Shown here: piece after piece, positions 4,240-28,592 of the stretch | How the letters are laid out: every line of letters begins with the position of its first letter | How positions within the stretch are numbered: the first letter of the stretch is position 1 | Virus record (IMG/VR): IMGVR_UViG_3300037493_003850 | Location: 1 to 29,541 of that record | Strand: one strand, 5' to 3' | Source: a virus | DNA length: 29,541 nt | Position numbers and translations under genes: made by a program | Notes under the pieces: generated by a model | What the model saw: the letters and a program-made list of their open reading frames with translations, nothing else | Databases searched by the model: none | Told to the model about the DNA's origin: nothing

Positions 4240-4242
4240 CCC

Positions 4243-5076: not shown

Positions 5077-5085
5077 GGAGACGCT

Positions 5086-6608: not shown

Positions 6609-6757
6609 GAGAAGACGGAAGAATCGCAAAGACCGTGTATGTCGGGAACGGCGTGGAATCCATTGAATGGATCGACCCGCCCGCGAAGAAGAAAGACCCG
6701 AAGGTCGAGCACAAGGCCGAGCACAACGCCAAGGCTGAAAAGCCCGCGAAGGACTAG
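6605..6757 (+). CDS. Very small charged hypothetical protein (50 aa)
   Basis: ATG 6605 overlaps the previous TGA as ATGA and the frame runs to TAG 6755-6757. The product begins MREDGRIAKTVYVGNGVE and ends in a Lys, Ala and Glu rich tail. Without this gene a 150-nt gap would interrupt an otherwise gapless coupled block, and the next gene starts three bases after its stop. The N-terminal half could form a small beta hairpin; the tail is probably disordered. Function is unknown, with a virion assembly role possible from its neighbours. Confidence 0.7.
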   Translation: MREDGRIAKTVYVGNGVESIEWIDPPAKKKDPKVEHKAEHNAKAEKPAKD

Positions 6758-6760
6758 CCC

Positions 6761-7833: not shown

Positions 7834-8363
7834 TGACGTTAAATGACTATCTCAATTCTCTAAATGACGCGGAGCGAGTCGCTTTCGTGAAGCGTGTCGA
7901 GGCAGTCGGGAACCAAACCGTCGATGTGTTCTCCGAGGCCCTGCCGAAGTGGTATGATCCCGAGGCCAGTTCACTAGACGTCAATTCCGTGTATGCGGTG
8001 CACAAGCACGAGGGACCAGGCGGAGCGACCCACTTCCATCTGCTATTGCTCGATTATCAATACGCCTACTGGGAGAACGCGGAACGCAAACCCGCGAAGC
8101 CTACCAAATCCGAGGACCCGGATCCAAAGGACGAGAAACCAGAAAACGACGTTAAGATCGTCGCGAGCAAAGCAGATAAGAAGTTTTTCAAAGCGACGGC
8201 AAAGGCCGACGGTTCTACCGAGGACGGGCCCTTGCACGTGTTCGGCTCGAGTTTGTATGACCCGGACAAACGCGTTTTCATTTTCCCCGGAACACAGAAA
8301 AAACAGCCGATCGAGGTCGGCGCAAAGCCGATTGAGGTCGGCACAGAGGAGACTAAGGCATGA
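7833..8363 (+). CDS. Hypothetical protein upstream of tail sheath (176 aa)
   Basis: The start is ATG 7833, overlapping the previous TAA as TAATG; the open frame extends further upstream but those codons lie inside the preceding gene. Features are a helical N-terminus (LNDYLNSLNDAERVAFVKRV), a GGATHFHLLLLDYQYAYWEN strand segment, a Lys, Pro, Asp and Glu rich linker in the middle, and a C-terminal HVFGSSLYDPDKRVFIFPG segment. The end holds two copies of PIEVG from a 21-bp duplication. It shares ATGA with the sheath gene. I do not recognise the family; a tail-assembly role is inferred from position only. Confidence 0.72.
   Translation: MTLNDYLNSLNDAERVAFVKRVEAVGNQTVDVFSEALPKWYDPEASSLDVNSVYAVHKHEGPGGATHFHLLLLDYQYAYWENAERKPAKPTKSEDPDPKDEKPENDVKIVASKADKKFFKATAKADGSTEDGPLHVFGSSLYDPDKRVFIFPGTQKKQPIEVGAKPIEVGTEETKA
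8306..8347 (+). repeat. Imperfect 21-bp tandem duplication
   Basis: Units at 8306-8326 and 8327-8347 match at 18 of 21 positions and encode a repeated KPIEVG-like segment at the C-terminus of the gene before the sheath. The period preserves the reading frame. Confidence 0.75.
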
Positions 8364-9934: not shown

Positions 9935-9958
9935 AGCGAAGAAGGGAAAAAGTGACCC

Positions 9959-10342
9959 ATGGCTTATGACGTAGCGGGAAGCAACGGCGCGCTCGAGATC
10001 GACGGAATCTCTTTCGACGTCGCCGCGGATTCGAATTTTTCCGTGACCCCGACCGAGTACGAAAATGATCTCGTCGCAACGAGCGGCAAGCCGATGATCA
10101 AGAAAATGCGCCGCACGCCCAACGTGGAAAGCGTGATCTTGATCTGCAATGCGGAAGATCGCTTGAAGCTCGAGTCGTTCAACGACTCCAAGACACCCTA
10201 TGGCTTGTCATGGACGAACGCCGCCGGCGACACCTATCGCACGACGGGGATCATCCATTACGAGACATACGAGACCGAAGAGAATCGGTGCACGCTGACG
10301 CTGTTACCGCGTGAACCGTGGGCGCCTTTCGTCGCTTCATAG
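9959..10342 (+). CDS. Tail tube protein, Mu gpM-like
   Basis: This 127-residue protein follows the sheath gene, as in Mu and P2, and has the size of Mu-type tube subunits, which stack as hexamer rings inside the sheath. The pattern is mostly strands: NGALEIDGISFDVAADSNFS, a loop with a PMIKKMRRTPNVE segment, VILICNAEDRLKLESF, then GIIHYETYETEENRCTLTLL. The opening strand pair and the final hairpin fit the tube fold. A purine tract, GAAGGGAAAAAG, precedes ATG 9959. No coupling overlap exists with the sheath gene, leaving a 24-nt gap that may help set a high tube yield. Confidence 0.85.
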   Translation: MAYDVAGSNGALEIDGISFDVAADSNFSVTPTEYENDLVATSGKPMIKKMRRTPNVESVILICNAEDRLKLESFNDSKTPYGLSWTNAAGDTYRTTGIIHYETYETEENRCTLTLLPREPWAPFVAS

Positions 10343-10376
10343 CGACTAGTCGAGAACAGAAGGCCGGGAGTTGAAC

Positions 10377-10802
10377 ATGCACACCGTCAGCAGAGAAGTA
10401 GCCGAAAGCCAATTAGGCAAACTGTTCGATCATTATGAGATCGAGCTCGAGAAGCGCCTGAAATCGGACAACGCGCAAGCTGTGGCCGATGACGTCAAGG
10501 ATATCTTGACCCGCAATATAATGAAAGGCCGACTCGAGATCGACGAGGACGAGACCGGGAGCGGGATCAAGATCACCCAGCGCTTGCGCACGCCCGTGGG
10601 GACCGTGAGCGAGATCCATTATCATGAGGTCACGGGTCGAGCTCGAACGGCGATCAAGGACGTCGACAAGGGATCGCCGCATCAAAAGATCTACGCGCTT
10701 CTCGCGGCGATCTCGAAAGAACCACAGCAGGTTTTCCTTGGCATGAGTGGCGTTGACCTCACGTGCGCGGAGACCTTGTCCACGGTTTTTTCGTTAGTGT
10801 GA
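10377..10802 (+). CDS. Tail assembly chaperone, upstream frame (Mu gp41 / P2 gpE position)
   Basis: This 141-residue protein lies between tube and tape measure, the place of the tail assembly chaperone that coats the tape measure during tail assembly. I chose ATG 10377 because GGGAG at 10366-10370 lies six bases before it; a TTG at 10371 would abut that site. The protein is acidic and mostly helical, with a short central strand pair (SGIKITQRLRTPVGTVSEIHYHEV). A T6 run at 10786-10791 lies just before its stop, and the overlapping second frame continues from there, as in the frameshifting chaperone pairs of many phages. The family is inferred from position and layout. Confidence 0.78.
   Translation: MHTVSREVAESQLGKLFDHYEIELEKRLKSDNAQAVADDVKDILTRNIMKGRLEIDEDETGSGIKITQRLRTPVGTVSEIHYHEVTGRARTAIKDVDKGSPHQKIYALLAAISKEPQQVFLGMSGVDLTCAETLSTVFSLV
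10784..10802 (+). other. Candidate -1 frameshift or reinitiation site
   Basis: The upstream chaperone frame reads GTT TTT TCG across a T6 run at 10786-10791 and stops at TGA 10800-10802. The downstream frame is -1 relative to it and is open across this point, so slippage of TTT onto TTT would make a fused protein. The run is not a perfect X-XXY-YYZ heptamer in the zero frame. The stop also overlaps an ATG at 10802 (TGATG), so reinitiation is a real alternative. Confidence 0.5.
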
Positions 10803-10969
10803 TGGACGACGTGCACCGCTTTTTAGGGAACTTGTTTTTCCGCGGTGCGAGTCCATCGGAGCTCGTTGACATGCCATATCACGAGCTCAAATACTGGAAT
10901 CAATGGCACGAGGTAATGGCTGACGAGGAACGTAGATCGGTCAGCAACGCGAAAGCGAAAGCGAAGTGA
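10802..10969 (+). CDS. Tail assembly chaperone, downstream frame (frameshift extension)
   Basis: This short frame encodes about 55 residues from ATG 10802, or the C-terminal extension of the preceding chaperone if ribosomes slip by -1 near 10788. It has the motif layout of such extensions: a small helical domain (DDVHRFLGNLFFRGASPSE), a PYHELKYWNQWHEVM helix, and a Ser, Ala and Lys rich end. In P2 and many others, the extended form of the chaperone links the short form to the tape measure. The tape measure gene starts three bases after its stop. Whether it is made alone or as a fusion cannot be told from sequence. Confidence 0.7.
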   Translation: MDDVHRFLGNLFFRGASPSELVDMPYHELKYWNQWHEVMADEERRSVSNAKAKAK

Positions 10970-10972
10970 ACC

Positions 10973-13063
10973 TTGCCTGATTTTGCGGTCAGCGTAGCGA
11001 TCCGAGGCGATGACCAGATCAGCGACAACCTGAGACGGTTGACGAAAAGCGTAGACCGTTTCGGGAAGAAAGCCGATCACTCGTTCGGCATGGCCTCACG
11101 AGCCGCGGGCGTTTTCAAAAGCGTGGTCGGCGGGGTCCTTGTCTCGGGTGCGATCTCCGCCGGGTTCAACGCGATGCGTATGGGCGCCGCTTCCGTGGCA
11201 AAAGAGTTCCTAGATATGGATCAAGCGCTTGTCTCTGCAGGCGCAAAATTCCAGCTCTCGAAGCTCGGCGCCGAGCAAGCCGCAAGCACAATGCAAAAGC
11301 TCAAGGACGCGGCTCGAGAAGTCGGAGCAGCGACCGAATACACCGCGGCGGAAGGAGCTCAAGGCCTAGAGTTCCTCGCCGCGGCTGGCTTCACGGCCGA
11401 GCAAGCGATCGCTTCATTGCCGGCAATGGTCGACCTCGCAACGGCGAGCAACTCCGACTTCGCGTCATCTGCTAGCGTCGCGGCCGACGCGATCGGTGCG
11501 TTCGGCCTGGCCTCGGATGACGCGCAAGTCCAGGCCAAAAACCTGCAGCGAATCACGGACGTTTTCGCGCAAACCGCGGCGCGGTCGAACGTGGGCATGG
11601 AGGACCTTTTCGAGACGTTCAAAATGGGCGCCCCGATCATGACCACGGCCGGTCAGAGCCTTGAGTCCTTTGCGGCGATGACCGCTATCATGGGCAACGC
11701 GGGCATCAAGGGATCGCTCGCGGGAACCACGCTCAAAAACACGATCGATCGCCTCATTGCGCCAGTCGGCAAGGGCGCCGAAGTTCTCAAGCAACTGAAG
11801 ATCCAAGTCAAAGACAGCGGCGGGAATATGCGCGACGTCGCCACGATCCTCGAGGACTTCGGCAAAGCTACTGAGGGCATGGGAAATGCGCAACGCACCG
11901 CGGCGATCTCCTCCGTGTTCGGTATGCACGCGGTATCGGGCATTGCGACGATCCTCGACACCGGGATCCCCACTTTGAAGTCGTTCCGCTCGGGTCTCGA
12001 GGACGCCGGCGGAGCCTCAAAGAAGATGGCCGACGAAATGCGCAAGTCGCTCACGAACCGGATCAAGGTTCTAAAGTCCGGACTGACCGAGCTCGGCTTG
12101 AAAGTAATCGAGGCCTTTCGGGACAAGTTCCCGAACGCCTTGGAATCCGCGATCAAGGCAATACAGACCTTTGACGTCATGCCGATCATCAACGGGATTA
12201 AGACCATTGTCGAGACCGTCAAGAGCGTTTGGAATTGGTTCGACAAATGGAAGTACGTCATCTTCGCGGTTATCGGAGCGATGGCGGCTTTGCGGATCGC
12301 GCTCGCGCTGACCGCAGTTGTTGAGATGTTCATTGCAGTTGTCACCGGAGCAACGACGGTCACAAAGCTTTGGGCGGCTTCTCAGATGGCGGTTAACGTC
12401 GCTATGTGGACGAACCCTGTAACCTTGATCATTGCTGGAATCATCGCGCTTATAGCGATAATTGCCTTGGTAATTGTCTATTGGGACGAGCTTGTGGTCC
12501 GGTGGGAGGACGGCCTAAAGGTTATGGGCGGCGGGACAAACGAGACGACGAACGCGATCGCTGACTTCTTCGCTATGATGAGCGCTAGCGTTACGAACGT
12601 CGCGATCGATATCAGCAACGCGTTCGGCGAGGCCTGGTATGGGATAAAGGCACAAGCCGCTGACGTCGCCTCATTCGTGGTCGGCGTGATGTCAACTGTT
12701 AGGTCCGCGCTCGGTATGGACGTTTCAGGAATGCCGTCTAGAGAAGATATCACTAAGCAGTTCGGAATCGACGAGGCTTATAAGCCGACCGATCACATAG
12801 ACTATAAAGATGCGGTGCAAGACTATAGAGACTACTTTGCAGAAGCACCGCAGGCGCAAGTTGAATCCGGGCGAACATGGGCCCCGCCGAATAGAGCGAA
12901 ACAAGAGGCCTCGCAAAATAACGTGAACTTGAGCGGCACTATTGACGTGGTCAGCAAGAGCGGCTTTATGACCGAGACGAACGGTCAGAGTACGGTGAAC
13001 GGACACAAGGCCCCGGGCGTCGACTGGCGCTCAAAGGGCGGACAGAATAGCGGGGCCCAGTAA
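10973..13063 (+). CDS. Tail tape measure protein
   Basis: This 696-residue protein sets tail length. The N-terminus (ISDNLRRLTKSVDRFGKKAD) is amphipathic, followed by a long helical region rich in Ala, Gly and Lys containing ATEYTAAEGAQGLEFLAAAG and SVFGMHAVSG, both typical of TP901-type tape measure cores. Hydrophobic segments around residues 427-506 (AVIGAMAALRIALALTAVVE and TLIIAGIIALIAIIALVIVY) fit the membrane-active part. The rule of about 0.15 nm of tail per residue gives a tail near 100 nm, an estimate only. The start is TTG 10973, three bases after the chaperone stop. Codons near 12400-12850 look less GC-rich than elsewhere in the gene. Confidence 0.9.
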   Translation: MPDFAVSVAIRGDDQISDNLRRLTKSVDRFGKKADHSFGMASRAAGVFKSVVGGVLVSGAISAGFNAMRMGAASVAKEFLDMDQALVSAGAKFQLSKLGAEQAASTMQKLKDAAREVGAATEYTAAEGAQGLEFLAAAGFTAEQAIASLPAMVDLATASNSDFASSASVAADAIGAFGLASDDAQVQAKNLQRITDVFAQTAARSNVGMEDLFETFKMGAPIMTTAGQSLESFAAMTAIMGNAGIKGSLAGTTLKNTIDRLIAPVGKGAEVLKQLKIQVKDSGGNMRDVATILEDFGKATEGMGNAQRTAAISSVFGMHAVSGIATILDTGIPTLKSFRSGLEDAGGASKKMADEMRKSLTNRIKVLKSGLTELGLKVIEAFRDKFPNALESAIKAIQTFDVMPIINGIKTIVETVKSVWNWFDKWKYVIFAVIGAMAALRIALALTAVVEMFIAVVTGATTVTKLWAASQMAVNVAMWTNPVTLIIAGIIALIAIIALVIVYWDELVVRWEDGLKVMGGGTNETTNAIADFFAMMSASVTNVAIDISNAFGEAWYGIKAQAADVASFVVGVMSTVRSALGMDVSGMPSREDITKQFGIDEAYKPTDHIDYKDAVQDYRDYFAEAPQAQVESGRTWAPPNRAKQEASQNNVNLSGTIDVVSKSGFMTETNGQSTVNGHKAPGVDWRSKGGQNSGAQ

Positions 13064-14409
13064 TGGGACTAGGCGACGCGATCGACAAACTAAAGGATCT
13101 TCTCGGCCTGGGCCCTGACGATTGGGCAGCTCGGCTCGCCGCGTCGATCGACATGACGAGCCCGAGCGGCAAGGCGTTCTCGCCGAAGTGGATTGGCAAC
13201 GCGCGGAGCTTTGACAAAAAGCTCGGGATCTTTTCTTACCCAAAGCTTTTGGGAAACGTCGTCCAAGATCTCGAAGCGGATTCGGCGCGCTATCCCCTCA
13301 CGCTCTACTTCGACGGGAAAGACAACGATCTCGACGCGGCTAGTTTCTTCGAGGCCGCTCGAGAGACGGGCCCGTGGGACGTGGTTCACCCGGTCCATGG
13401 GTACGTCCAACTGCAGCTGATTTCGATCTCGGAGCAAGTCCAGCCCGTGACGAGTGGCGGGATTACGGTATTCGATACCGAGTGGATCGAGCCGATCGAC
13501 CCTGACGAGCTCGTCACCGCGCGGGAGCTGCAGAGCAAAACCGAAGAGGCGATCAAGGATCTTAACATCAACGCGGCGCAGCAATTCGCGGACAACATAA
13601 CCCAGGCTGCAGCGTCGGCGGTGAACGCGATCGCGAGCGCGGCAAGCCTGGTCTCAGCGATCATGGACGCTGCGACGAGCCCGCTTTTCGATTCGCTCGA
13701 TGCCTTGAATAGCGTGGTGAACGCGACTCAAATCGCGCTGCAGAGCACGATCACTCAAGCTGAAATCATAGCTGACTCGCTGGCCGGTCAATTGCAGCAG
13801 CTGGCTCAACTCCCGGCGTTAGGATCTGGTAACGGTTCTTCGAAACTCGATGCCTTTTCTAACGTGATTGATTCGGTCAGCGAGCAGCTTCCTTTAACGG
13901 GTATTCCGTCATCTGAGGACATCGAGATCGTCAAGAACAAGGTCGCGGTGCACGAGCTCGCCTTGAACGCGACCGTGGGGGCGATCGCAAAGGTCGCGAT
14001 CGTTTCCACGCTCGTCACGAGGTCTGACGCGCTCGTCCTCGCCGAGCGGCTTGGCGACCTGACCACGACGATCCTTGGTAACCTCGACACGACTCAACAA
14101 GCGTTCGACGGTCAGCCCGCCGATCTGCAATACGCCTCGAACGGTCAGACCTTCGCGAGCATCAACAACGTCATAACGCTCGCCACGCGCTATCTTTTGG
14201 CCGTTGCGCCGGACCTCAAGATCGAGCGACGGCAGATCCTCGACGAGCCCAAGACGCCGGTTCAAATCGTGCTCGAAGCCTATGGTGAGCTCGGGACCGA
14301 TAGCGCGCTTCTCGATCTTTTCATCGAAGCCAACAAGCTCGGTGACACCCTCGACGGCAACGGGATCCTCGTGCTCGATCGTGGGTCGGAGGTCGTGACG
14401 TATGGCTAA
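13063..14409 (+). CDS. DNA circularization / tail protein, Mu gpN-like
   Basis: This 448-residue protein starts at ATG 13063, overlapping the tape measure stop as TAATG. Residues about 30-150 show the hallmarks of the gpN N-terminal domain (PF07157): SFDKKLGIFSYPKLLGNVVQ, LYFDGKDNDLDAASFFEAAR, GPWDVVHPVHGYVQLQLISI and DTEWIEP. These match P22/Mu-type proteins historically called DNA circularization proteins, now seen as part of the tail and baseplate hub. The rest is a long Ala and Ser rich helical region and a C-terminal domain. It overlaps the next gene by 8 nt. The label is historical, and a distal-tail adaptor role is more likely than DNA circularization. Confidence 0.87.
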   Translation: MGLGDAIDKLKDLLGLGPDDWAARLAASIDMTSPSGKAFSPKWIGNARSFDKKLGIFSYPKLLGNVVQDLEADSARYPLTLYFDGKDNDLDAASFFEAARETGPWDVVHPVHGYVQLQLISISEQVQPVTSGGITVFDTEWIEPIDPDELVTARELQSKTEEAIKDLNINAAQQFADNITQAAASAVNAIASAASLVSAIMDAATSPLFDSLDALNSVVNATQIALQSTITQAEIIADSLAGQLQQLAQLPALGSGNGSSKLDAFSNVIDSVSEQLPLTGIPSSEDIEIVKNKVAVHELALNATVGAIAKVAIVSTLVTRSDALVLAERLGDLTTTILGNLDTTQQAFDGQPADLQYASNGQTFASINNVITLATRYLLAVAPDLKIERRQILDEPKTPVQIVLEAYGELGTDSALLDLFIEANKLGDTLDGNGILVLDRGSEVVTYG

Positions 14410-15691
14410 GCCAACCGCCGGCCGGCCGTATACGATCGTCCCTGGGGATAACCTCTCGAGGATCGCGGCCGCGGCTTATGGCAGTCCACGCGAGTGGCGA
14501 AAGATCTGGAAAGCCAACAAGGCCACGCTCCGGAGCGGGGACCCGAATCTGATTTTTCCGGGTGAGGTTCTGTGGCTTCCCGAGCAGGTTATCCCCGTCG
14601 AAGAAGACGACGAGACCGCGCCCGATCGGCTCGAGGGAAAGGACCCCGGCGACTTTACGATCATAGTCGAGGGCCTCGAGATCCCCGTGGTCGACGGTCG
14701 GGCGTTCCGTTCGATCGACACCGTGGCCGGCGGGTTCTCCGCGACGATCCCTTGGGATCCAACGAGAACGACCGACCGAGCCAAAGAGCTCCTATCGAAG
14801 GTGAAGCCTTACGGCTTCAAGCCTTGCGAGTGCTACCTTGGCGGCGAACTCATGATGACCGGGCGCCTTTACGGCGTGGGCGTGTCGATCGGAGCGAACG
14901 GCGTGACGCTCGACCTCGAGGGATGGAGTCACACGGCCGATTTGGTCGACTCGACAGTCCGGCCACCATACGAAGCGAAAAAAGTCACCCTCGAGCAACG
15001 GGCAACGTCCATGCTCGAGGGGTTCGCGATCGAGCTCGATTTTCAGCTAGACGAGGACGAGCAATTCGACAAAATCACGATCCAACCCACGGACACGATC
15101 TTTAATCATTTGCTCGAGCTCGCCAGGCAGCGCAAAGCCCTGGTGACGAGCGACGCCAAGGGGCGCCTGGTCATAACACGGGCGAACGTCGACGGAGGAT
15201 CCGTGTTCACCCTCGAGGAGGGCAAACGCCCGCTCTCGCAAGCGGCGATCCGCTTCGACGGTCGAGCGCGGTTCAATACCTACACCGCGATCTCGCAAGC
15301 GCCACGGAAGAAGAAAAAGAACGCTTCCGCGCCGACGGCTACGGCGAAAGATGACGTCGTCCCCGCGGCGCGTATGTTTCGATTCCAGGCGAACGACGTC
15401 AAGGGCGAGACCCTACAGCAGGCCGCAGACTGGGAACGCTCGAGGCGCCTCGCGGACGGGCTCAAGGTGTCGATCCCCGTCGACGGCTGGCAAGTCCCGG
15501 GGACGAAGGACCTATGGCGCGAGAACACGATCGTCACGCTCAAAAGTCCATCGCTGTTCATTCCGGATGGGTACGACTTTTTGATCCGTTCCGTGGAATA
15601 CTCGTTTTCAGAAAAGGGCGCCGTTGCTGACCTCGAACTCGTTCCGCCGGAAACGTTCACCGGCGAGCCCTTAAAGGAGCCCTGGCTATGA
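14402..15691 (+). CDS. LysM-containing baseplate hub protein, Mu gpP / P2 gpD-like
   Basis: This 429-residue protein starts at ATG 14402, with GGAGG about ten bases upstream inside the previous gene. Residues about 8-61 are a LysM domain (YTIVPGDNLSRIAAAAYG and LIFPGEVLWLPE). The remainder fits hub proteins of the gpD/gpP type, trimers that join spike and tube: VEGLEIPVVDGRAFRSIDTV, SATIPWDPTRTTDRA, a KVTLEQRATSMLEGFAIELD segment, a DTIFNHLLELARQRKALVTS segment, and a late KAQ-free strand domain ending VADLELVPPETF. In P2 the LysM protein (gpX) and gpD are separate, so this is a fused form. It ends in an ATGA overlap with the spike gene. Confidence 0.87.
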   Translation: MAKPTAGRPYTIVPGDNLSRIAAAAYGSPREWRKIWKANKATLRSGDPNLIFPGEVLWLPEQVIPVEEDDETAPDRLEGKDPGDFTIIVEGLEIPVVDGRAFRSIDTVAGGFSATIPWDPTRTTDRAKELLSKVKPYGFKPCECYLGGELMMTGRLYGVGVSIGANGVTLDLEGWSHTADLVDSTVRPPYEAKKVTLEQRATSMLEGFAIELDFQLDEDEQFDKITIQPTDTIFNHLLELARQRKALVTSDAKGRLVITRANVDGGSVFTLEEGKRPLSQAAIRFDGRARFNTYTAISQAPRKKKKNASAPTATAKDDVVPAARMFRFQANDVKGETLQQAADWERSRRLADGLKVSIPVDGWQVPGTKDLWRENTIVTLKSPSLFIPDGYDFLIRSVEYSFSEKGAVADLELVPPETFTGEPLKEPWL

Positions 15692-16215
15692 CAGTCACCG
15701 GAAAAGTTCTCGATAGCGAAGTGGGCCCGAACAAGGACGGTGACACGGACGTCCGGCTGCTAACGGTCGAGCTCGCCGATGGTGACGATATCCAAACCGT
15801 CGAGTACTACGACTGCGGCGGGCGCGACTATCTCCCGCCGGACGGCGCCGAAGTCGTGATCGTCGATATCTCGCCTTCGTATCGCGTAGCGGTTGCCGTC
15901 GACGATCGCCAGGACTCGGTAGTCGCCAAGGGTGAGCAAGAGCTCTACTCGCTCGACGAAGCCGGAACGGCCAAAGCCGCGACGATCAAGCTCACGAATG
16001 ACGCGGTCATCGAAATGAACGGCGACACAGATTTCGCCGTGAGATACTCGGAGCTCGAGTCCGCGTTTAATCAACTCAAGCAAGACTTGAACGCGTTCAT
16101 TTTGATTTACAACACTCACTCGCATTCGGCCTTCGGTGGCCCGCCAAGTGCCACCGGCCTCGACTCGGCCGCTGATATCAGCGGAGCCAAGATCGACGAA
16201 ATAAAGGTGCCGTAG
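15688..16215 (+). CDS. Baseplate spike protein, Mu gp45 / P2 gpV-like
   Basis: This 175-residue protein starts at ATG 15688 and overlaps the hub stop as ATGA. The N-terminal part is an OB-like beta domain (TGKVLDSEVGPNKDGDTDVR to YRVAVAVDDRQ), followed by a strand-rich stem with repeated hydrophobic steps (AATIKLTNDAVIEMNGDTDF). Near the C-terminus lies NTHSHSAFGGPPSATG, with His144 and His146. An H-x-H pair of this type coordinates metal at the tip of gpV-like spikes. The length is close to Mu gp45 (about 197). The metal role is inferred from that precedent. Confidence 0.83.
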   Translation: MTVTGKVLDSEVGPNKDGDTDVRLLTVELADGDDIQTVEYYDCGGRDYLPPDGAEVVIVDISPSYRVAVAVDDRQDSVVAKGEQELYSLDEAGTAKAATIKLTNDAVIEMNGDTDFAVRYSELESAFNQLKQDLNAFILIYNTHSHSAFGGPPSATGLDSAADISGAKIDEIKVP

Positions 16216-16668
16216 ATGGCATACGATCGAACACAAGGCGATCCCAAGATCACGATTGACGGCGACGGCGCCGATCTCGTGTTCAAGGGCGGGCAACCGA
16301 TCATGGACTCCGGTCTCGAGAACGCGATCTTGATCTCGCTGTTCTCGGGGTCGGAATGGTTCGGTAACGCGTTCGCCTTGCCAAGCTCGAGGATCGAGAG
16401 TCGATTCTATCCGCTATCACTCAAGTCGATCACCGCGTCGAGGCTCGCCGAGCTCGAGCGCGCGGTGAAAGCGGACTTGAAAGGCCTGGTAGCGAACGGC
16501 GCCATTGCCGATCCCGTCGTTCGCGCGAGCAACCCGACGGGCGATCGGCTGTTAATCGAGATCACGATCTCCCCGCCCGGTACCGAGGCCGAAGTGATCT
16601 TGCTCTCGCGCTACGGCGCAAACTGGTCTGTCCAGACCACTAACCCGGCGAGCTCGAGGGTGAACTAA
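16216..16668 (+). CDS. Baseplate protein, Mu gp46-like
   Basis: This 150-residue protein starts at ATG 16216, directly after the spike stop, with AAGGTG seven bases upstream. The sequence follows the GP46 family: an opening DPKITIDGDGADLVFKGGQP, a SGLENAILISLFSGSEWFGN segment, LKSITASRLAELERAVKADL, and a strand-rich end (LLIEITISPPGTEAEVILL). In Mu, gp46 lies between spike and gp47 and corresponds to the W-type baseplate protein of P2. It ends in a TAATG overlap with the gp47-like gene. Gene order and motifs agree. Confidence 0.87.
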   Translation: MAYDRTQGDPKITIDGDGADLVFKGGQPIMDSGLENAILISLFSGSEWFGNAFALPSSRIESRFYPLSLKSITASRLAELERAVKADLKGLVANGAIADPVVRASNPTGDRLLIEITISPPGTEAEVILLSRYGANWSVQTTNPASSRVN

Positions 16669-17873
16669 TGGCGATCTCAATACCGACGACTCAACAACTT
16701 ATCGACACGTTCATAGCAGCCTTCGAGACCAAACTAGGTCAAACCGTTCCGGCGCTCGAGCGGAGTTTTATCTCGGTACTCGCGCGGGTCTTGGCGCTCT
16801 CCGATACTGGCCTATACAAGTATGCTGCGAATCGCATACTGCAATCGCTGGCCATTACCGCGACCGGCGATAACCTCGATCTCATTGGCGACAATTACGG
16901 GGTCTATCGGATCGCGGGGACCGCGGCGGAGATCAACGTCGTTCTCCTAGGGACCACGGGATCGACGCTCCCGCAAACGGCGGATCTTATCGCCGACAAC
17001 TCCGGGGTTCGGTACTACCCCGAGACCGACGTCTCTTTCGATAACGCCCCCACGCCTGGACAAGAAACGTTCACGATCATATCCGAGTCGATCGGGACCA
17101 CTGGCAACGCGGTCAGCGGCGACACGTTCACGCTCACGTCACCGGTGACCGGCCTGGCTTCCGTCGCCACGTACGCGTCGACCGATACGGCCGGCCAAGA
17201 TCGCGAGGCGGATTCGGCCTACCGTAGACGGATCCTCGACGAGATCCGGACAGTCGGCGGAGCGGGCAACGGCGTGGATTATCGACGTTGGGGAGAGCAG
17301 AGCTCGAACGTGGCCAGGGTCTACCCGTATTCAGGAAAGCCGGTGGACGGATCCGAGGGGCTCGTCGACGAGCCCGGGGATCGCACCGTCTATGTCGAGG
17401 CGATCGAGGCCTATATCACCGGCGATCGGACAGCTGACGCGACGTTGCTCGCCGAAGTCCGGGCCTTGATCACAACCGACCCGGACACGAGCTTTGAGCG
17501 CGTTCCATTGGGTTGCCCGGATAACACCCTTTACGTCAAATCGATCGCGAACCAAGACATATGGGTCACGATCACGAGCCTGACGGCGAACGGGACCGCG
17601 TTGCTCGTGGACATAAAGGCCGACATCGAGGCCGCACTCGAGGGTTACCTGCTCGAGCTCGCGCCGTACGTCGAGGGCGTGGACGTCGAGGTCGATCGCA
17701 ACGACCGGCTGACCGATCTGTCCATCGCGCGGATTGTCCAGCAGATTCTAATCGACCTGAACGGGACAGCAACGGACGTCACGTTCTCGCTCACCGAGGG
17801 CGGATCGAGCGCGGGATCCTATGTGGTCCCGCAAGGGTATTTGACCCAGCTCGGCGGGGTCGACTATGTCTGA
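16668..17873 (+). CDS. Baseplate J-like wedge protein, Mu gp47-like
   Basis: This 401-residue protein starts at ATG 16668. It carries the baseplate J hallmarks (PF04865): the N-terminal PALERSFISVLARVLALSDT and LYKYAANRILQSLAITATGD helices, the GTAAEINVVLLGTTGSTLPQ strand domain, the AVSGDTFTLTSPVTGLASVA segment, and the DREADSAYRRRILDEIRTVG motif that is nearly universal in the family. A later GGAGNGVDYRRWGEQSSNVA segment also matches. These proteins form the outer wedges with gp46 and gp48. The gene overlaps the following gp48-like gene by 8 nt, and the order gp45-46-47-48 is the Mu order. Confidence 0.93.
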   Translation: MAISIPTTQQLIDTFIAAFETKLGQTVPALERSFISVLARVLALSDTGLYKYAANRILQSLAITATGDNLDLIGDNYGVYRIAGTAAEINVVLLGTTGSTLPQTADLIADNSGVRYYPETDVSFDNAPTPGQETFTIISESIGTTGNAVSGDTFTLTSPVTGLASVATYASTDTAGQDREADSAYRRRILDEIRTVGGAGNGVDYRRWGEQSSNVARVYPYSGKPVDGSEGLVDEPGDRTVYVEAIEAYITGDRTADATLLAEVRALITTDPDTSFERVPLGCPDNTLYVKSIANQDIWVTITSLTANGTALLVDIKADIEAALEGYLLELAPYVEGVDVEVDRNDRLTDLSIARIVQQILIDLNGTATDVTFSLTEGGSSAGSYVVPQGYLTQLGGVDYV

Positions 17874-18585: not shown

Positions 18586-19214
18586 CGACCGTTTTAAGCA
18601 AGCCATCGGGCTATCGAACCGGCGGAAGTGGGGCGAGGGTTCTACGGATCACGGTGTCGTCCCCATTCCCGCCGTCAGCCTACGCGCAACACGAGCTCAT
18701 ATTGCTGGCCGGCAAAGAGTACCGGCTGCAGGGCTGGCTAAGGTCAGATTCCGTGAACGAGTTTGACCTTGCGATCTGGTCCTCGCGCGTGGACGAGGGC
18801 GGAGCGGATACCGAGATCTTCGCGCTGAGCGGGACGGCCGCGTGGGCTCAATTCGACGAGACCTTTACCCCCGCGCATGACAGTTATTTGAGGTTTGGCG
18901 GGATCTATATCGAGGCGCCGACGGGCAATTTTTGGTTCGAGTATGACGATGTGACGCTATGGGCAACGGAAGACGTTCCCACGAACCCAATACTCTACTG
19001 GACGGCCGGCGGCGACGCGGTACTAGCGAAGGATCTCGATGAAATTTACGAGGGCCTGCAAAGCCTTTCTGTCACCGCTGACGCGAACGACTTTTCGCAG
19101 CAAGACGTGAATCTTGATGAGCGTTACGCGACCGTGAGTGACGCGTTCGTCATGTTCGACGGCGGGAGCGGAGTGCTTCGAAGCCGCGTCCTAGATCAGG
19201 AGCCTCTATCATGA
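18582..19214 (+). CDS. Carbohydrate-binding-like fibre protein continuing the preceding gene's domain
   Basis: This 210-residue protein starts at ATG 18582 overlapping the previous TGA as ATGA. It begins part-way through a CBM_4_9 / galactose-binding-like fold: VLSKPSGYRTGGSGARVLRI, then AGKEYRLQGWLRSDS, AAWAQFDETFTPAHDSYLRF, and FWFEYDDVTLWA. The first strands of this fold are at the end of the preceding gene. A paralogous domain in the next gene has the same order in one polypeptide (TLSKQSGTRTGGSG ... VEFDDVTIEAD). The C-terminal 70 residues are acidic and helical, possibly a linker. Either two products assemble into one domain or a frame shift joins them. Role: host recognition, by inference. 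Confidence 0.75.
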   Translation: MTTVLSKPSGYRTGGSGARVLRITVSSPFPPSAYAQHELILLAGKEYRLQGWLRSDSVNEFDLAIWSSRVDEGGADTEIFALSGTAAWAQFDETFTPAHDSYLRFGGIYIEAPTGNFWFEYDDVTLWATEDVPTNPILYWTAGGDAVLAKDLDEIYEGLQSLSVTADANDFSQQDVNLDERYATVSDAFVMFDGGSGVLRSRVLDQEPLS

Positions 19215-22200
19215 ACAACACGCTAGCCAATGGTTTCAGCGATATTGAGGTCCCGGTAGTCAGCGGCGGTACGAACGATTCGACCACGCTCTCGCTGACG
19301 TTCAACGGCGAGGACCAAGGGGCGAAGGGCACCATAACCCCCGATGGAACGGCCGGAGCGATCACCGCGTGGGTCAAAGTCAATGACGCCTCGCGCGATG
19401 AAACGTTTCGGCTTCGACCCCGGATCACCGGCTACAAAGCGCTTCCCGCCGCGATCACGATCGACGGCGTGACGGTGCAACCCTCGATCCGGCTCGAGGG
19501 CGAGGACGCCACGGTGTCAGCGTGGACGGACGTGATCAACGGTACCTCGTTCGCGATCGCGGGGACGGGCGCCGATCCGACGTTCGACGAGCAAGCGCCG
19601 GGCATTGATTGCAAAAGAGTCAAATTCAATGCGGGGAAGTATTACGCAGTTGGCAGTTCCGGGGTCGGGGCTTTAAGCACAAATGACTTTGTGATAGAAG
19701 CGGTGGTAAAACACGATACCTCGGCCGTTAACTACATATTCAGTAAAGTCGGGCCCGCCGGGTTAGGGGAATCCGTTGTCTTATACAGTGCGGGTGGATC
19801 ACTAGTTTTGTATGTGGATTCCGAGCTCGCGGCTGCGGATCAAGTTACGTTGTCGACATCAATGGTAAACGGTCTGTGGTATCACATAATGCTTTTCTGT
19901 GACCGGAACGGAAATGGAAAGGGCTTTGTGAATGGCGCGGGCGGAACCGCGGTGTCGATAGCGAATCATTCCGCGGCGAACCTAGCCGAAAACGGGAGGT
20001 GGTCCATCGGAGCGGACACCGGAGGATCGGGTCTCGGTCAAGTATCTACTTCATATTTCGCCCTCTGGCACCGCGCAAGCTGGCTTGCTACCGCAGACTG
20101 TGCCGGCATCGCCGCAAAGCGCTTTGCACAATGCTGCGGAACCTACGCCGAGACGGCGCAATTAGTAAACCCCGGGTTCCTCGATCTCGATATGGAAGCC
20201 GCGGACGCCGCGTCATGGACTGCGCTAAACACCGCGACTCTGTCGAAGCAATCGGGAACGAGGACCGGCGGATCGGGATCGCTCGTGATCCGCGTCGCCG
20301 GCGACGGTAGCACGTCTTCTCCCAAAGCCGCGCAAACCCGAGCCGGCGGGATAACCCGTGTCACCGGCTGGGCCCGATCGAACGGCGCTGCAGTCCCCAC
20401 CGTGGCCCTCACGAGTACAACGATCTGGACGGGATCGAACTCGACGAGCTGGCAAGCTTTCGATATTGCCGTCTCGTCCTACCTTTACGCGTCCACGCGG
20501 CTCGAGCTCGGGACCGCGCTCGCAACTGGGCACGTCGAGTTTGACGATGTGACGATCGAGGCCGACGGCGCCATACCGACAACGCAGTCCAGATCGACGC
20601 AGGCCTACCTCGAGAAATGGAACATTGCGGGGACCGAATCCTATTTGATCCCGGTCGGCGCGAATTGGCTTCGAACAGACAAAATCAAGTGCGCTGACGG
20701 GACCTTTGAAATAGGGGCGAGGTTAGAGCAAGCGCAAACAAACCTGTTTTTGTATTCCGAGGACTTCAGCAACGCGGCATGGACTAAGACCCGAACCACG
20801 ATCGGGACCGTGGTGACCGGGCTCGGGAGCTTAAGCTTTAACCCGATCATCGCGAGCGTCGATAACGCAACGCATCTCATCAAACAAGCTGTCGTTACCG
20901 CGGCCGGAGAGGAGCACGTGGTTACCGTCTACGCTAAGGCAGGGGGCGGAGTCACTAATAGCATACGGATCGAACTGAACGAGGACGCAACACAGTACGC
21001 GTATTACAACCTCGCGACTGGCGAGATCGGCGCCGTCGGAGCGGGGTTCACCCTAACAGCGCCAGCACACATATACCCAAAGGGGAATGGGTATTACCGT
21101 TGCGATTTCAGGCCAACGACCCCGGGAACTGCAGCGACGGTAAACATCTATCTGTCAAACGGATCGACAGCGGGAAGCGAGACGTTCACCGGCGACGGTA
21201 CCACCGTGGGGGTGTACCTAGCCGGAGCGCAATTCGAGCGCCAACTAGCGTCAAGCCAACACACGGGATCCCCATCGAGCTACGTAAAGACGACTTCCGC
21301 CACGGTCACGCGAGTAAAAGATCTCGCACTATATCACGGGTATGAGAATTGTGGCGGGCTAAACACCAAAAACGTCCACATGAAAGTGGACCATGTTTGC
21401 CTTGCTTTCGCAAACAACTATGTGGGGCTTCGAACGGCCGGATCGCTCACGTCGAAAAGCGCAAACGATAGATCAGAGCTTTACTCTGATATGTCCACGA
21501 AAAAGTGGAATGCGATCGCGGTGACAGGCGGGACCACGCAAGCGAGTTTAGCGGCCACGACTTCGACACCGTTCGATAACAACCTGCAGACGACCGAAGC
21601 TTGCTTTGCAAAAGACAACGTCGCGCTAGCGGTGAGTAAAACCGTCGAGGCTCGGGACACGTCCGCGACAATAAACCCCATGACCGAGATCGTTGTTGGC
21701 GCTAGCACGGGTTACCTGTATCACATTGACGGCATCATAACAGACTTTTTGCTTTCCCCTTATGGGACCGAATACCCACGGGCGATCTTTGCGCTCGATA
21801 AAGATGCCTACACCCAACAAGCGTTTATTGGGTACGACATGCTCGACGAGGACGCCTTGACGTATGAGCTCCGCGCCGGCGGCGGGACCACGCGACTAGT
21901 CACCATGAACGGCGGGACCTTCAACGTCGGCACGTGGTACCTAATCAGCCTCGAATGGACCGGCGGAACCTCGGTGAGAATCCGAGTCAACGGTACCAGC
22001 GTGGACAGCGCGACGGCCGACGCGACGATCGCCGAGCTAACCGATCTGTTTATCGCGTGGGCGGGGCTTTACGGCTACACGTACGAGCCCGCCGCTGGCG
22101 ATCCCGACTACCCGATCACCTACGGGGCGATCTCGATCGCGGACGTGCAACACCACACCGCGGTCCCGCCGGCGGCCTGGTACACGGAAATGGTGGCCCG

Positions 22201-23296
22201 TGGCGTACCGGCGAAGAACGAGCATCTCATTCACCAGATCTCGCAAGTCGCGCACCAGGCCGAAACCCATTACGATCTACTGACCGGAACGGAAGGGGCG
22301 ATCACCGATAGCGGGAGCGTGCTCAATTTCGTTCCGCCTACCGAGGTCGGGCTAGCGCTCGGCGCGAGCTCGACGAACAAGACGATCATCGACTTCGGGA
22401 CAAACTTCGCGTTCATGCAAGAGACCTCGCACAGTTACGACGCTTGGATCCGCGTCGACGGTAGCGGGGATCAATGCGTGTGGGCGAACGGCGATGCGAA
22501 CACAACCGACTTTCAAGCACTCTTGTATGACAACGCAACCGACTCGCTCATATACAAGTGCGTCATAGGTGCGACCCTAAGATCGGTCAGCGCGGAGATC
22601 GAGCTAGACAGGCTTTATCACGTCACGATCACGCGGGACTATGACAGCGGCGCGGGGACGACAACGATCGCGATCTACCTCGACGCGGTCGCGGCTGATA
22701 TCCAGATCTATTCCGGCGCACCCGTGGTTACTAATGACGATTTCGTCATGCTTTCCACATTAGTAACCACGAGCGAGAGCGGTGAGGCTTTCACTCTACC
22801 TTTCACCGGCGCAACCGTGGGCAATCGTTTCTATGATGACGCGTTGACCCAGGCGGAGATCGACGCGATCTATTTAGCGGACAGCGCGGTCATCCTGAAC
22901 GGGCCCTACGCGACGCAAACGATCACGCCGGCGACCTTGCCCGCGACGATCTCGGGAGCTGTGAAGCCCGACGGGATCAACGGCTACCCGATCGTGCTCG
23001 TCCAGGCCGAAAGCGGCGGAGCGTGGCGAGCGATAGCAACGGCGGAGAGCGAGACGGGTTACTCCGAGTTCTCGAAGCAAACCAAGGTCAATGACTTTCG
23101 GTTGTACGCAAAGGGTTACAATACCTACGAGCCCGTCACGGCATACTTCGATGACCTCGACGGCGGGGAGGATCCCGGCGATTTCACGATCGGGATCGTC
23201 GAGGTCGCGAAGAACAAGCGCAAAGCATTAGAAAATCTCGTGCTCGTCCACAAGCCTTTGCACTCGTGGGCAGTAATGGTGGTCAAGTACATTTGA
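19211..23296 (+). CDS. Large mosaic tail fibre / receptor-binding protein with gp48-like C-terminal end
   Basis: This 1361-residue protein starts at ATG 19211 (ATGA overlap). Approximate modules are: N-terminal strands to 85; a LamG-like lectin fold at 130-310 (DFVIEAVVKHDT, LWYHIMLFCDRNGNGKGFVN); a carbohydrate-binding-like domain at 319-453; an adhesin module with NLFLYSEDFSNAAWTKTRTT at 510-700; a second LamG-like region at 705-980 (NVGTWYLISLEWTGGTSVRI); a third at 1020-1215 (HSYDAWIRVDG, DDALTQAEIDAIYLAD); and a carboxypeptidase-regulatory-like domain at 1245-1310. The last residues, KALENLVLVHKPLHSWAVMV, match the ending of gp48-like baseplate proteins. Lectin-like folds point to glycan or cell-surface binding. 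Codon use and AT content vary between modules, suggesting exchange. Confidence 0.85.
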   Translation: MNNTLANGFSDIEVPVVSGGTNDSTTLSLTFNGEDQGAKGTITPDGTAGAITAWVKVNDASRDETFRLRPRITGYKALPAAITIDGVTVQPSIRLEGEDATVSAWTDVINGTSFAIAGTGADPTFDEQAPGIDCKRVKFNAGKYYAVGSSGVGALSTNDFVIEAVVKHDTSAVNYIFSKVGPAGLGESVVLYSAGGSLVLYVDSELAAADQVTLSTSMVNGLWYHIMLFCDRNGNGKGFVNGAGGTAVSIANHSAANLAENGRWSIGADTGGSGLGQVSTSYFALWHRASWLATADCAGIAAKRFAQCCGTYAETAQLVNPGFLDLDMEAADAASWTALNTATLSKQSGTRTGGSGSLVIRVAGDGSTSSPKAAQTRAGGITRVTGWARSNGAAVPTVALTSTTIWTGSNSTSWQAFDIAVSSYLYASTRLELGTALATGHVEFDDVTIEADGAIPTTQSRSTQAYLEKWNIAGTESYLIPVGANWLRTDKIKCADGTFEIGARLEQAQTNLFLYSEDFSNAAWTKTRTTIGTVVTGLGSLSFNPIIASVDNATHLIKQAVVTAAGEEHVVTVYAKAGGGVTNSIRIELNEDATQYAYYNLATGEIGAVGAGFTLTAPAHIYPKGNGYYRCDFRPTTPGTAATVNIYLSNGSTAGSETFTGDGTTVGVYLAGAQFERQLASSQHTGSPSSYVKTTSATVTRVKDLALYHGYENCGGLNTKNVHMKVDHVCLAFANNYVGLRTAGSLTSKSANDRSELYSDMSTKKWNAIAVTGGTTQASLAATTSTPFDNNLQTTEACFAKDNVALAVSKTVEARDTSATINPMTEIVVGASTGYLYHIDGIITDFLLSPYGTEYPRAIFALDKDAYTQQAFIGYDMLDEDALTYELRAGGGTTRLVTMNGGTFNVGTWYLISLEWTGGTSVRIRVNGTSVDSATADATIAELTDLFIAWAGLYGYTYEPAAGDPDYPITYGAISIADVQHHTAVPPAAWYTEMVARGVPAKNEHLIHQISQVAHQAETHYDLLTGTEGAITDSGSVLNFVPPTEVGLALGASSTNKTIIDFGTNFAFMQETSHSYDAWIRVDGSGDQCVWANGDANTTDFQALLYDNATDSLIYKCVIGATLRSVSAEIELDRLYHVTITRDYDSGAGTTTIAIYLDAVAADIQIYSGAPVVTNDDFVMLSTLVTTSESGEAFTLPFTGATVGNRFYDDALTQAEIDAIYLADSAVILNGPYATQTITPATLPATISGAVKPDGINGYPIVLVQAESGGAWRAIATAESETGYSEFSKQTKVNDFRLYAKGYNTYEPVTAYFDDLDGGEDPGDFTIGIVEVAKNKRKALENLVLVHKPLHSWAVMVVKYI

Positions 23297-26636: not shown

Positions 26637-27293
26637 CTACTTATTCCGCGCGAGCTCGAGCAACCCCGCGATCGACCTCGCGAGCGGGATCCGGAATCGA
26701 AAATCGCTCTCGTCACGCCACAGCTCGCGCTGCAGAACGAACCGCTCGGCGTTCGTTGCCCGGAGCGTCTCGTCCCCGGTGACTAGTGCGAGGTTCGGGT
26801 TGCGCGACGTATGGCCGGCCGTGGTATGCCCCCACGCCGTGGCCGAAATCCCGAGCTCGTCGAGGCGCATTACCAATTGCTGCAGGATCCCGCCGTGCAG
26901 GAGCTCGCCGGCTCGAGCGGGGCGAGGGTTGTCACCGGCTGTCCGGCAAGCGGCAAACCAAAGAACGGGCGAGGGCGCCAAGATCGCGGCCAGCGCGGCG
27001 GCGAGCCCGGGGAGCTTGGCTAGCGCGTGACCCGTTTGGATCCATCGCTCGGTCCCGTGGCAGAACAACGCGAGGACGTCGACGGGCTCGCCGAGCTCCG
27101 CGCGGGCGTCGAGCATCGCCCTCTCCGCGGCCGCTGGCCGCTGCAGCGCTGGCAGTTGCGGGATAGGGATCAAGGCGCAAGCGTCGCCGCGATCGGCGTG
27201 GAATTGGGCATAGGCGCGCGCCTCGCGCGTGAACTCGTCCCCGTCTCGTCTGCCGTGGGTGTTCTGTGCTGAGTAAAGGATGATATGTTTCAC
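26637..27293 (-). CDS. Caspase/CHAT-like (clan CD-type) protein, candidate cysteine protease
   Basis: This 218-residue protein starts at GTG 27293-27291. It opens with an alpha-beta fold (KHIILYSAQNTHGRRDGDEF). Residues 71-82 (VDVLALFCHGTE) end a hydrophobic strand in His79-Gly80, and residues 109-119 (PVLWFAACRTA) end another in Ala115-Cys116. A strand-HG and strand-xC-x-T pair about 37 residues apart is the catalytic layout of caspase, gingipain and CHAT proteases. A later AWGHTTAGHTSRNP is recalled from uncharacterised phage proteins. No insertion or prodomain is visible. Catalysis is inferred, and a structural clan-CD-like fold without activity is possible. Its start overlaps the stop of the alternate-frame ORF over the methyltransferase gene as GTGA. 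Confidence 0.7.
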   Translation of the reverse strand: MKHIILYSAQNTHGRRDGDEFTREARAYAQFHADRGDACALIPIPQLPALQRPAAAERAMLDARAELGEPVDVLALFCHGTERWIQTGHALAKLPGLAAALAAILAPSPVLWFAACRTAGDNPRPARAGELLHGGILQQLVMRLDELGISATAWGHTTAGHTSRNPNLALVTGDETLRATNAERFVLQRELWRDESDFRFRIPLARSIAGLLELARNK

Positions 27294-28405
27294 AGCCCGT
27301 CACCTTCCCGTAAAAGCGTTGACCAAAGTAGCGAACGCATACGCTGCTTGAACCGGGACCACTGCATTGCCGAGGGCGTGGAGCTGCTCGCGACGGAAGC
27401 CCAGCCCGTTGGATAGCCCATCAATGACTCGACAAAGCGTGGGTTCAACGCTCGGCCAGAACTCGACGGGTACAGTTGCCCATCGCTCGAGGTCGGCGGG
27501 ACCGGGCGGCCAGATCGACACGCCACATCGGTCAAGCTCACCCCCGGATGAGCCTTGCTCCCCGGCAGACACCTTTGACCGCTCGCCTTGAAATCCGTTG
27601 CCGTTGCCGTTGGCCAGATCTTCGATTGATTGGTCAGACCCGCTTCCCGTCGATTGCCACAAGCTGCCCCTTTGGTCCCGTTCGAGGCCATCGGCGTTGC
27701 CCATCCCTTCGCCTGCCCCGTCAATAGCATCTCCCCTTTGCGCTCTCCTGAGCGGCTCAAGCAACCCGCTTTGCCTAAGCCCGCCGTAGGCGTCTGCCAG
27801 TCCTTCGCCCATGTGTGCAAGCTCGGTGTCCCAGCGCTCGGGCGCGTGCAGTTCGATCCATTCTGCGAGCTCCCCGACTCGCTCGCGGCCGGCGTCGGAC
27901 ACTGCGAGCGCGAATAGGCGTTCCCTTTGATGAGGGGCGCCCACCGTTGATGCTCGGCAGACCATCGCCGCAACCGTGTAACCCAAGCTTTGTAAATCTC
28001 GGGCGGCGACGTCGAAGCCGGCGGACAGATGGCGGGCGACGTTTTCGAGAAAGACGAGGGGAGGTCCGCATTCTCCGATGATTCGGAACACCTCGGGCCA
28101 AAGGTGTCTTGCATCGGCGGCTCCGCGCTTTTGGCCGGCGACGCTGAAAGGCTGGCATGGGTAGCCCGCTGTAACGCAATCCACAGGTCCACGCCAAGGT
28201 CTGCCGTCAAAGGTTCGCAAGTCGTCCCAGATAGGTGCTTGAGGTATGTGGCCTTGCTCCATACTCTGTGCGAGAATGGAAGCGCAGTATGCGTCCCGCT
28301 CGACAGCACAAATAGTTCGTGCGCCGGGTACCGCGATCTCAACACCGAGATCGAGACCTCCGAGACCAGTGCACAACGACAGTATTCTGGGAGGTATAAC
28401 CACAT
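27290..28405 (-). CDS. Alternate-frame ORF overprinting the cytosine methyltransferase gene
   Basis: A 371-codon frame, +1 relative to the methyltransferase, runs the full length of that gene. Its ATG (28405-28403) shares the AAGGA site and overlaps the methyltransferase GTG as ATGTG. Its TGA overlaps the GTG of the next gene as GTGA. The product has ATHASLSASPAKSAEPP, a FSKTSPAI segment, repeated WxTPTA-like units (WQTPTAG, WATPMAS, IWPTATATD) and LNPRFVESLMGYPTGW near residue 320. I recall phage hypothetical proteins with the same WPTPTA repeats and LNP-x-WVEWLMGFP ending. It may be a real overlapping gene, or a long shadow of the methyltransferase, the commoner explanation in GC-rich DNA. 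Confidence 0.4.
   Translation of the reverse strand: MWLYLPEYCRCALVSEVSISVLRSRYPAHELFVLSSGTHTALPFSHRVWSKATYLKHLSGTTCEPLTADLGVDLWIALQRATHASLSASPAKSAEPPMQDTFGPRCSESSENADLPSSFSKTSPAICPPASTSPPEIYKAWVTRLRRWSAEHQRWAPLIKGNAYSRSQCPTPAASESGSSQNGSNCTRPSAGTPSLHTWAKDWQTPTAGLGKAGCLSRSGERKGEMLLTGQAKGWATPMASNGTKGAACGNRREAGLTNQSKIWPTATATDFKASGQRCLPGSKAHPGVSLTDVACRSGRPVPPTSSDGQLYPSSSGRALNPRFVESLMGYPTGWASVASSSTPSAMQWSRFKQRMRSLLWSTLLREGDGL
27300..28403 (-). CDS. C5-cytosine DNA methyltransferase
   Basis: This 367-residue enzyme would transfer methyl from S-adenosylmethionine to carbon 5 of cytosine in DNA. Motifs are complete and in order: I, ILSLCTGLGGLDLG near residue 10; IV, the PCQ catalytic loop in AGYPCQPFS (Cys83); VI, FLENV (Glu120); VIII, QRERLF at 159-164; and the C-terminal ALGNAVVPVQAAYAF (motif X). 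The target-recognition part (about 170-330) is Gly, Asn and Asp rich with LADA, GNAD and LANGNGN segments. The start is GTG 28403; an in-frame TAA at 28415-28413 excludes anything longer. No nuclease partner is visible, so protection of phage DNA from host restriction is more likely than a restriction-modification pair. Specificity is not predictable. Confidence 0.93.
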   Translation of the reverse strand: MVIPPRILSLCTGLGGLDLGVEIAVPGARTICAVERDAYCASILAQSMEQGHIPQAPIWDDLRTFDGRPWRGPVDCVTAGYPCQPFSVAGQKRGAADARHLWPEVFRIIGECGPPLVFLENVARHLSAGFDVAARDLQSLGYTVAAMVCRASTVGAPHQRERLFALAVSDAGRERVGELAEWIELHAPERWDTELAHMGEGLADAYGGLRQSGLLEPLRRAQRGDAIDGAGEGMGNADGLERDQRGSLWQSTGSGSDQSIEDLANGNGNGFQGERSKVSAGEQGSSGGELDRCGVSIWPPGPADLERWATVPVEFWPSVEPTLCRVIDGLSNGLGFRREQLHALGNAVVPVQAAYAFATLVNAFTGR

Positions 28406-28412
28406 TAGTTCC

Positions 28413-28592
28413 TTACTTGAACGCCATTCGAGCGCTCAAAAACTCGAGAAACGATCGCTCGTTCACGATCCACGTCTCGCCCACTTTCGAACAGTCGAAC
28501 CGCTTCTCAGCGCACCAGTTTATGATCGTTCGCCGGTCGACTCGCGCGAGCTCGGCCGCTTGTGACGCTGATATCCATTTTGTTTTTGCCAT
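28413..28592 (-). CDS. Small helix-turn-helix DNA-binding protein (excisionase-like)
   Basis: ATG 28592-28590 opens 59 codons ending at TAA 28415-28413. The sequence reads MAKTKWISASQAAELARVDR then RTIINWCAEKRFDCSKVGET, WIVNERSFLEFLSARM. This is a single winged helix-turn-helix of the MerR/excisionase type (HTH_17): S-x-x-Q-A-A-E-L-x-x-V-x-x-R-T-I-x-x-W, then a wing ending in W-x-V. The gene starts one base after the kinase stop and ends seven bases before the ATG of the alternate frame. It may regulate its own operon, or act like Xis or a small terminase-type binder. No integrase is visible here. Confidence 0.8.
   Translation of the reverse strand: MAKTKWISASQAAELARVDRRTIINWCAEKRFDCSKVGETWIVNERSFLEFLSARMAFK

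Follow-up and report, generated by a model that had tools for sequence, protein, structure and literature searches.

On the minus strand of a viral genome, a stretch of about 1.1 kb runs without stop codons in two reading frames at once. Does this locus encode one protein or two and, if two, what could they do together? The window analysed here comprises 29,541 nucleotides, positions 1 to 29,541 of the IMG/VR record IMGVR_UViG_3300037493_003850. As genes for the portal, head protease, major head, tail sheath, tape measure and baseplate proteins are found at positions 338-17873, the virus is a contractile-tailed phage. An open reading frame (ORF) of 1361 amino acids located after the baseplate genes (19211-23296), perhaps a tail fibre or receptor-binding protein, has no match in PHROG. 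The two overlapping frames, named alpha and beta, and the signals around them are as follows.

27300-28403, minus strand: alpha, 367 amino acids, from GTG at 28403 to TGA at 27300; probable large subunit of a C5-cytosine methyltransferase
27290-28405, minus strand: beta, the gene overprinted in the +1 frame, 371 amino acids, from ATG at 28405 to TGA at 27290
28401-28405, minus strand: ATGTG, in which the GTG of alpha and the ATG of beta overlap by one base
28410-28414, minus strand: AAGGA, the sole candidate ribosome-binding site, 4 nt 5' of the ATG and 6 nt 5' of the GTG
27290-27293, minus strand: GTGA, in which the start of the next ORF overlaps the stop of beta

A previous, sequence-only reading of this DNA had described two frames of 367 and 371 codons open over the same 1.1 kb, starts at GTG 28403 and ATG 28405 that overlap as ATGTG behind a single AAGGA, and a stop of the alternate frame that overlaps the next start as GTGA. 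The coordinates and lengths are as it gave them, and both overlaps are present in the sequence, the second at 27293-27290. The ORF that follows (26637-27293, 218 amino acids) is coupled through this GTGA to the stop of beta, not to that of alpha, and has no match in PHROG. The core of that reading was that a second selected gene overprints a methyltransferase. An alternative is that the +1 frame is an untranslated by-product of high GC content and of a constrained methyltransferase protein. The GC content of about 60% lowers the frequency of stops, and in a few relatives rich in GC an open +1 frame would arise by chance with a probability of up to about 0.3-0.4.

The number of stops expected was obtained from 20,000 synonymous-codon permutations of alpha. 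The +1 frame of the window has none, while 6.9 ± 1.8 are expected, and zero was never reached in the 20,000 permutations; the +2 frame, which served as a control, has 10 stops against 11.1 expected. Relatives were drawn from viral contigs by alignment of the alpha frame alone, which avoids a choice by beta, and the best 80 viral loci picked in this way all match the beta profile in the +1 frame (80/80). Stops were counted in the 44 methyltransferase-first loci in which a fixed span could be scored. Their +1 frames have 3 stops against 141 expected and their +2 frames 461 against 456; 42 of the 44 are open in +1, while 1.8 would be expected. Relatives of Dcm, used as a negative control, have no beta match and no +1 ORF, and their 107 stops in +1 against 130 expected do not represent a comparable depletion. 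Stops in the +1 frame of close relatives were to have refuted the gene; their near absence speaks strongly for it.

Because of the offset between the two frames, each third position of an alpha codon doubles as the second position of a beta codon, and the fourfold-degenerate third bases of alpha were used as test sites. In divergent relatives that have a short beta, third-base identity outside beta is at background (0.276 versus 0.265 before it and 0.289 versus 0.264 after it), while inside beta it is 0.399 and 0.622 versus about 0.27 expected. The fourfold third-base excess, with a jackknife over loci that allows for the non-independence of locus pairs, is 0.246 ± 0.031 inside beta and 0.017 ± 0.016 outside. 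At the stop of beta, identity is 0.84 and 0.74 in the last two ten-codon blocks, then 0.34 and 0.26. When the window is compared with its own class, third-base identity is 0.397 versus 0.284 expected, and the excess is positive in 53 of 57 comparisons. Between motifs VIII and IX, conservation of the +1 frame is close to that of alpha or higher, with ratios of 1.09 for the short form of beta and 0.90 for the long form, compared with 0.45 and 0.31 outside beta. Pairwise similarity beyond what alpha dictates has a median z of 4.1 in the +1 frame; that of the +2 frame also lies slightly above the shuffle mean, as a by-product might, but its median z is only 1.7. Constraint limited to the methyltransferase frame, also proposed earlier as a refutation, was not found, and the fourfold sites strongly support beta. 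Given this difference between the frames, the stop depletion in loci picked by alpha, the sharp start and end of third-base constraint at the borders of beta and the enrichment of internal SD cores given below, an untranslated by-product is extremely improbable and is strongly disfavoured already. The +1 frame is a selected gene, not chance, and the core claim is upheld by stop depletion and third-base constraint together.

Alpha is matched by PF00145 with an E-value of 2.2e-31 and a score of 109.9 bits (Pfam gathering cutoff 22), over residues 6-169 only, and by M.HhaI (4.8e-14) over residues 6-167. With PF00145 above its gathering score and a catalytic PC motif, it qualifies as a C5-cytosine methyltransferase. 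Alpha carries motifs I-VIII and X, the latter as LGNAVVPVQAAY, which contains LGNAVVP. Motif IX is absent from alpha, and we assign it to beta.

28143-28160, minus strand: alpha motif IV, PCQPFS, with the catalytic Cys
27915-27926, minus strand: alpha motif VIII, RERL
27401-27448, minus strand: beta motif IX, LNPRFVESLMGYPTGW; the same bases read EPTLCRVIDGLSNGL in alpha
27360-27371, minus strand: GNAV core of alpha motif X

The motif IX block of beta is located directly 5' of the codons of motif X, in the other frame. It is predicted to be a helix (pLDDT 95), and its M, G and P are invariant in 98 betas. The block is in the +1 frame in 102 of the 107 loci in which it can be recognised; two loci with an interrupted alpha, L034 and L038, still have it in +1 when motif X is taken as the reference. 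Its identity as motif IX is inferred from single-chain relatives. In L003, L164 and L171, alpha itself encodes the block and continues into motif X, so that a single chain has both in the order seen in M.HhaI. This single-chain form is collinear with M.HhaI 273-312 through motifs IX-X (RLNPKFVEYMMGLPEGW over KLHPRECARVMGYPDSY); the direct alignment of motif IX to M.HhaI is below threshold alone and is collinear with a strong N-terminal match. The predicted structure of the single-chain form superposes on M.HhaI 12-327 with a Z of 23.5 and an rmsd of 3.7 over 228 aligned residues, and the part of alpha that lies between motifs VIII and IX is modelled there with a pLDDT of about 35-50. Dcm carries LTPRECARLMGF at the position of motif IX, which resembles LNPRFVESLMGY.

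A third arrangement is found in L054, L069 and L108: alpha stops after motif VIII, and motifs IX and X are both read in the beta frame. Motif X is also in the +1 frame in L121, L157 and L174. These loci have either an M.AquI-like split or a frameshifted product, and they are what could be expected if programmed ribosomal frameshifting joined both frames into one methyltransferase chain, rather than two proteins being made. However, a fused chain would lack motif X in the window and in loci of the common form, all of which read this motif in alpha (there are no slippery-site data), and beta has its own start and SD. We consider frameshifting very unlikely as an account of the locus.

The starts of beta fall into two forms. 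The short form of beta opens some 160-180 nt into alpha, in most cases right after an in-frame stop, and in 19 of 25 loci its start has an internal SD-like core ahead of it, compared with 7.9 ± 1.9 when the alpha codons are shuffled. In the long form, which includes the window, beta begins at or near the start of alpha. The window shares ATGTGG with six other loci (L001, L002, L037, L045, L051 and L062), and the beginning of beta, MWLYxP, is common to the window, the cyanophage locus L001 and the Acidovorax phage locus L002. The public records of these two phages annotate only the beta frame (L001:2501-3616 and L002:2501-3667) and leave the catalytic alpha frame unannotated; the beta of L002 is named a cytosine-specific methyltransferase. 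No third-base constraint is found in the first 45 or so alpha codons of the long-beta class (0.27-0.32 versus 0.27-0.29), so the N-terminal 60 or so residues of the window beta are weakly supported, and its true start could lie inside.

The product of beta matches phrog_1008 over most of its length (E-value 1.2e-16; beta residues 76-351, profile positions 40-294 of 329), and no family of Pfam or NCBIfam matched it. As all 83 betas scanned match phrog_1008, the product of beta is a known phage protein cluster; phrog_27243, 26627 and 31772 stand beside phrog_1008 among its nearest known counterparts. As a single-sequence query against viral contigs, beta retrieved no relatives. The label of PHROG 1008, 'DNA methyltransferase', is silent on the position in a second frame inside the gene and on the motif carried, both of which are assigned here. 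The sequence-only reading had pointed to a common phage protein of unknown function; the cluster is indeed there, but the protein is best read as the motif-IX small subunit of the methyltransferase and not as an unrelated protein. It had also described WPTPTA-like repeats, of which beta has four.

27884-27901, minus strand: repeat 1, CPTPAA, at beta residue 169
27782-27799, minus strand: repeat 2, WQTPTA, at beta residue 203; the +1 reading of alpha LADAYG
27686-27703, minus strand: repeat 3, WATPMA, at beta residue 235; the +1 reading of alpha GNADG
27599-27616, minus strand: repeat 4, WPTATA, at beta residue 264; the +1 reading of alpha LANGNG

The general kinship suspected from such repeats holds, in that the WPTPTA/LMGxPxGW family consists of frame-shift relatives of the LADADG/RVADG methyltransferase family. 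The AlphaFold model of beta alone is mostly of low confidence (mean pLDDT 58), with only motif IX and two helices predicted confidently, and for this reason it was not used for a fold search. No solved structural relative of beta was found at an E-value of 10.

In a clade with motif IX in alpha (L177-L256, for example L177:2251-2721), a selected +1 beta fragment that ends before motif IX was observed. The rest of beta is open in the +1 frame in 80 of 80 loci of this clade, and fourfold third-base identity reaches 0.94 near the end of the fragment. In this clade, beta must therefore have some role beyond carrying motif IX. This retained remainder, the richness in WPTPTA-like repeats and the lack of a solved relative would also be compatible with beta being real and yet no enzyme subunit, for instance an overprinted regulator, inhibitor or counter-defence protein. 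Against such a role, alpha lacks motif IX exactly where beta has it, motifs IX and X occur together in one chain, either alpha (L003, L164 and L171) or beta (L054, L069 and L108), and no beta is found without alpha. We give this possibility a small chance.

The arrangement is shared by hundreds of phage and bacterial loci, and the phages concerned infect a wide variety of hosts. Bacterial loci picked by beta have it nested in the +1 frame of a methyltransferase in 80 of 80 cases, and they span Proteobacteria, Planctomycetes, Verrucomicrobia, Bacteroidetes, Nitrospira, Firmicutes and Actinobacteria. Profile searches of evenly drawn genomes found beta in 24 of 398 Pseudomonadota (about 6%) and in 4 of 299 from the phylum to which a Paenibacillus belongs, with the two seed genomes included in these counts; the loci from these 398 and 299 sampled genomes are nested in +1 in 35 of 35 cases. 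A free-standing beta was found neither in viral contigs or bacterial genomes with beta-pattern scans nor in the 398 and 299 genomes with the profile. A lack of beta homologues outside methyltransferase overlaps had been named as grounds for rejecting the gene, and taken literally this has come about. It does not refute the gene, because the stop and constraint tests strongly favour it.

In E. coli, a DNA relative of the Klebsiella form is present in 66 of 5426 genomes, and both frames are open in the two prophages examined. An intact alpha ORF of 404 amino acids in E. coli NZ_CP126602.1 (L175:2944-4155) is annotated in RefSeq as two broken pseudogenes. Annotations often omit beta, or give it instead of alpha. 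Many records of P. larvae phages annotate both frames, so the overlap has already been seen locally; a survey of these phages names methyltransferases and, in the passages retrieved, does not comment on the overlap (PMC6070908). Among open-licence papers, none was found that treats the overlap as general or describes it in phages.

Two-polypeptide enzymes of this type are known. In M.EcoHK31I, a C5-methyltransferase of YGGCCR, the small subunit is encoded within the large one in another frame, and both subunits are required in vitro. This enzyme has been called naturally split (PMC3439449), and its large subunit contains motifs I-VIII, motif X and the predicted target domain, while the small subunit contains motif IX only (PMC3404938). 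The window has the same layout. Alpha carries I-VIII and X, as the large polypeptide of this type should; motif IX is carried by the small polypeptide and not by the large one, with its identity inferred as above; and the small polypeptide lies in an alternate frame over the large one, under selection. The window thus fits the M.EcoHK31I kind on every feature compared, among which sequence homology and joint activity are not included; the likeness is one of motif layout, with no sequence comparison behind it. In contrast to M.EcoHK31I, the beta of the window is longer (371 amino acids) and overprints the whole of alpha, the start region is shared as ATGTG, and the locus is in a contractile-tailed phage. 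M.AquI (CYCGRG) is likewise a C5 enzyme in two polypeptides, of which the large one has motifs I-VIII and the small one the distal variable region and motifs IX-X (PMC3404938). A small subunit that holds both IX and X, the mark of M.AquI, is seen in L054, L069 and L108 but not in the window; there, motif X belongs to alpha and the two genes overlap over their full length. In the Paenibacillus phage Redbud, gp51 ('g50 internal gene') is a +1 ORF inside a C5-methyltransferase and has the end LNPDWVECLMGFPIGWTD, like beta; unlike the window beta it is of the short form, with a start about 180 nt inside alpha. The single-chain enzymes M.HhaI and Dcm share the catalytic domain and the motif order of the window enzyme, but have all motifs in one frame. 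The kind is therefore already known, while its breadth, the full-length form with a dual start and the architectural variants appear undescribed in the open-licence literature.

Both frames are open and under selection at the protein level, alpha lacks motif IX, beta has it, and other loci join motifs IX and X. Our best explanation, with a probability of roughly 85%, is that one C5-cytosine DNA methyltransferase is encoded here as two subunits, the large one in the alpha frame and the small one in the beta frame. Alpha (motifs I-VIII and X) would bind AdoMet and provide the catalytic Cys. Motif IX would come from beta, as would, probably, a large part or the whole of the small DNA-recognition domain. 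Whether beta also supplies target recognition is an inference to which we give about even odds. Methylation by the heterodimer would be directed at a specific site in the DNA of the phage or of its host. One ribosome-binding site may serve both the ATG of beta and the GTG of alpha, overlapping as ATGTG, so that a single initiation region would yield both subunits; where beta is shorter, as in some relatives, it would use a putative ribosome-binding site of its own inside alpha. Translation of both proteins in this phage, their association, a joint need for activity, the site specificity and the start at ATG 28405 are inferred only.

More tentatively, and at somewhat less than an even chance, alpha and beta may be an ancient overprinted pair, a catalytic frame with a DNA-recognition and motif IX frame, which has been kept across several phyla and is among the more widespread long overlaps of prokaryotes. 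A single ancestor would then have given rise to the M.EcoHK31I-like, M.AquI-like and single-chain-like forms as motifs IX and X changed frame. On this view, it is the overprinted frame that would determine the target site. Apart from a few small viruses, proof is rare for long overlaps on one strand in which both frames are selected. Enzymes identified as methyltransferases by alpha alone would be only half described, should both chains prove necessary. The pair is carried by E. coli prophages, among them a lambdoid one in NZ_CP019243, which leaves the idea open to test in a laboratory strain, and the frame changes of motifs IX and X represent a natural series for enzyme splitting and overprinting.
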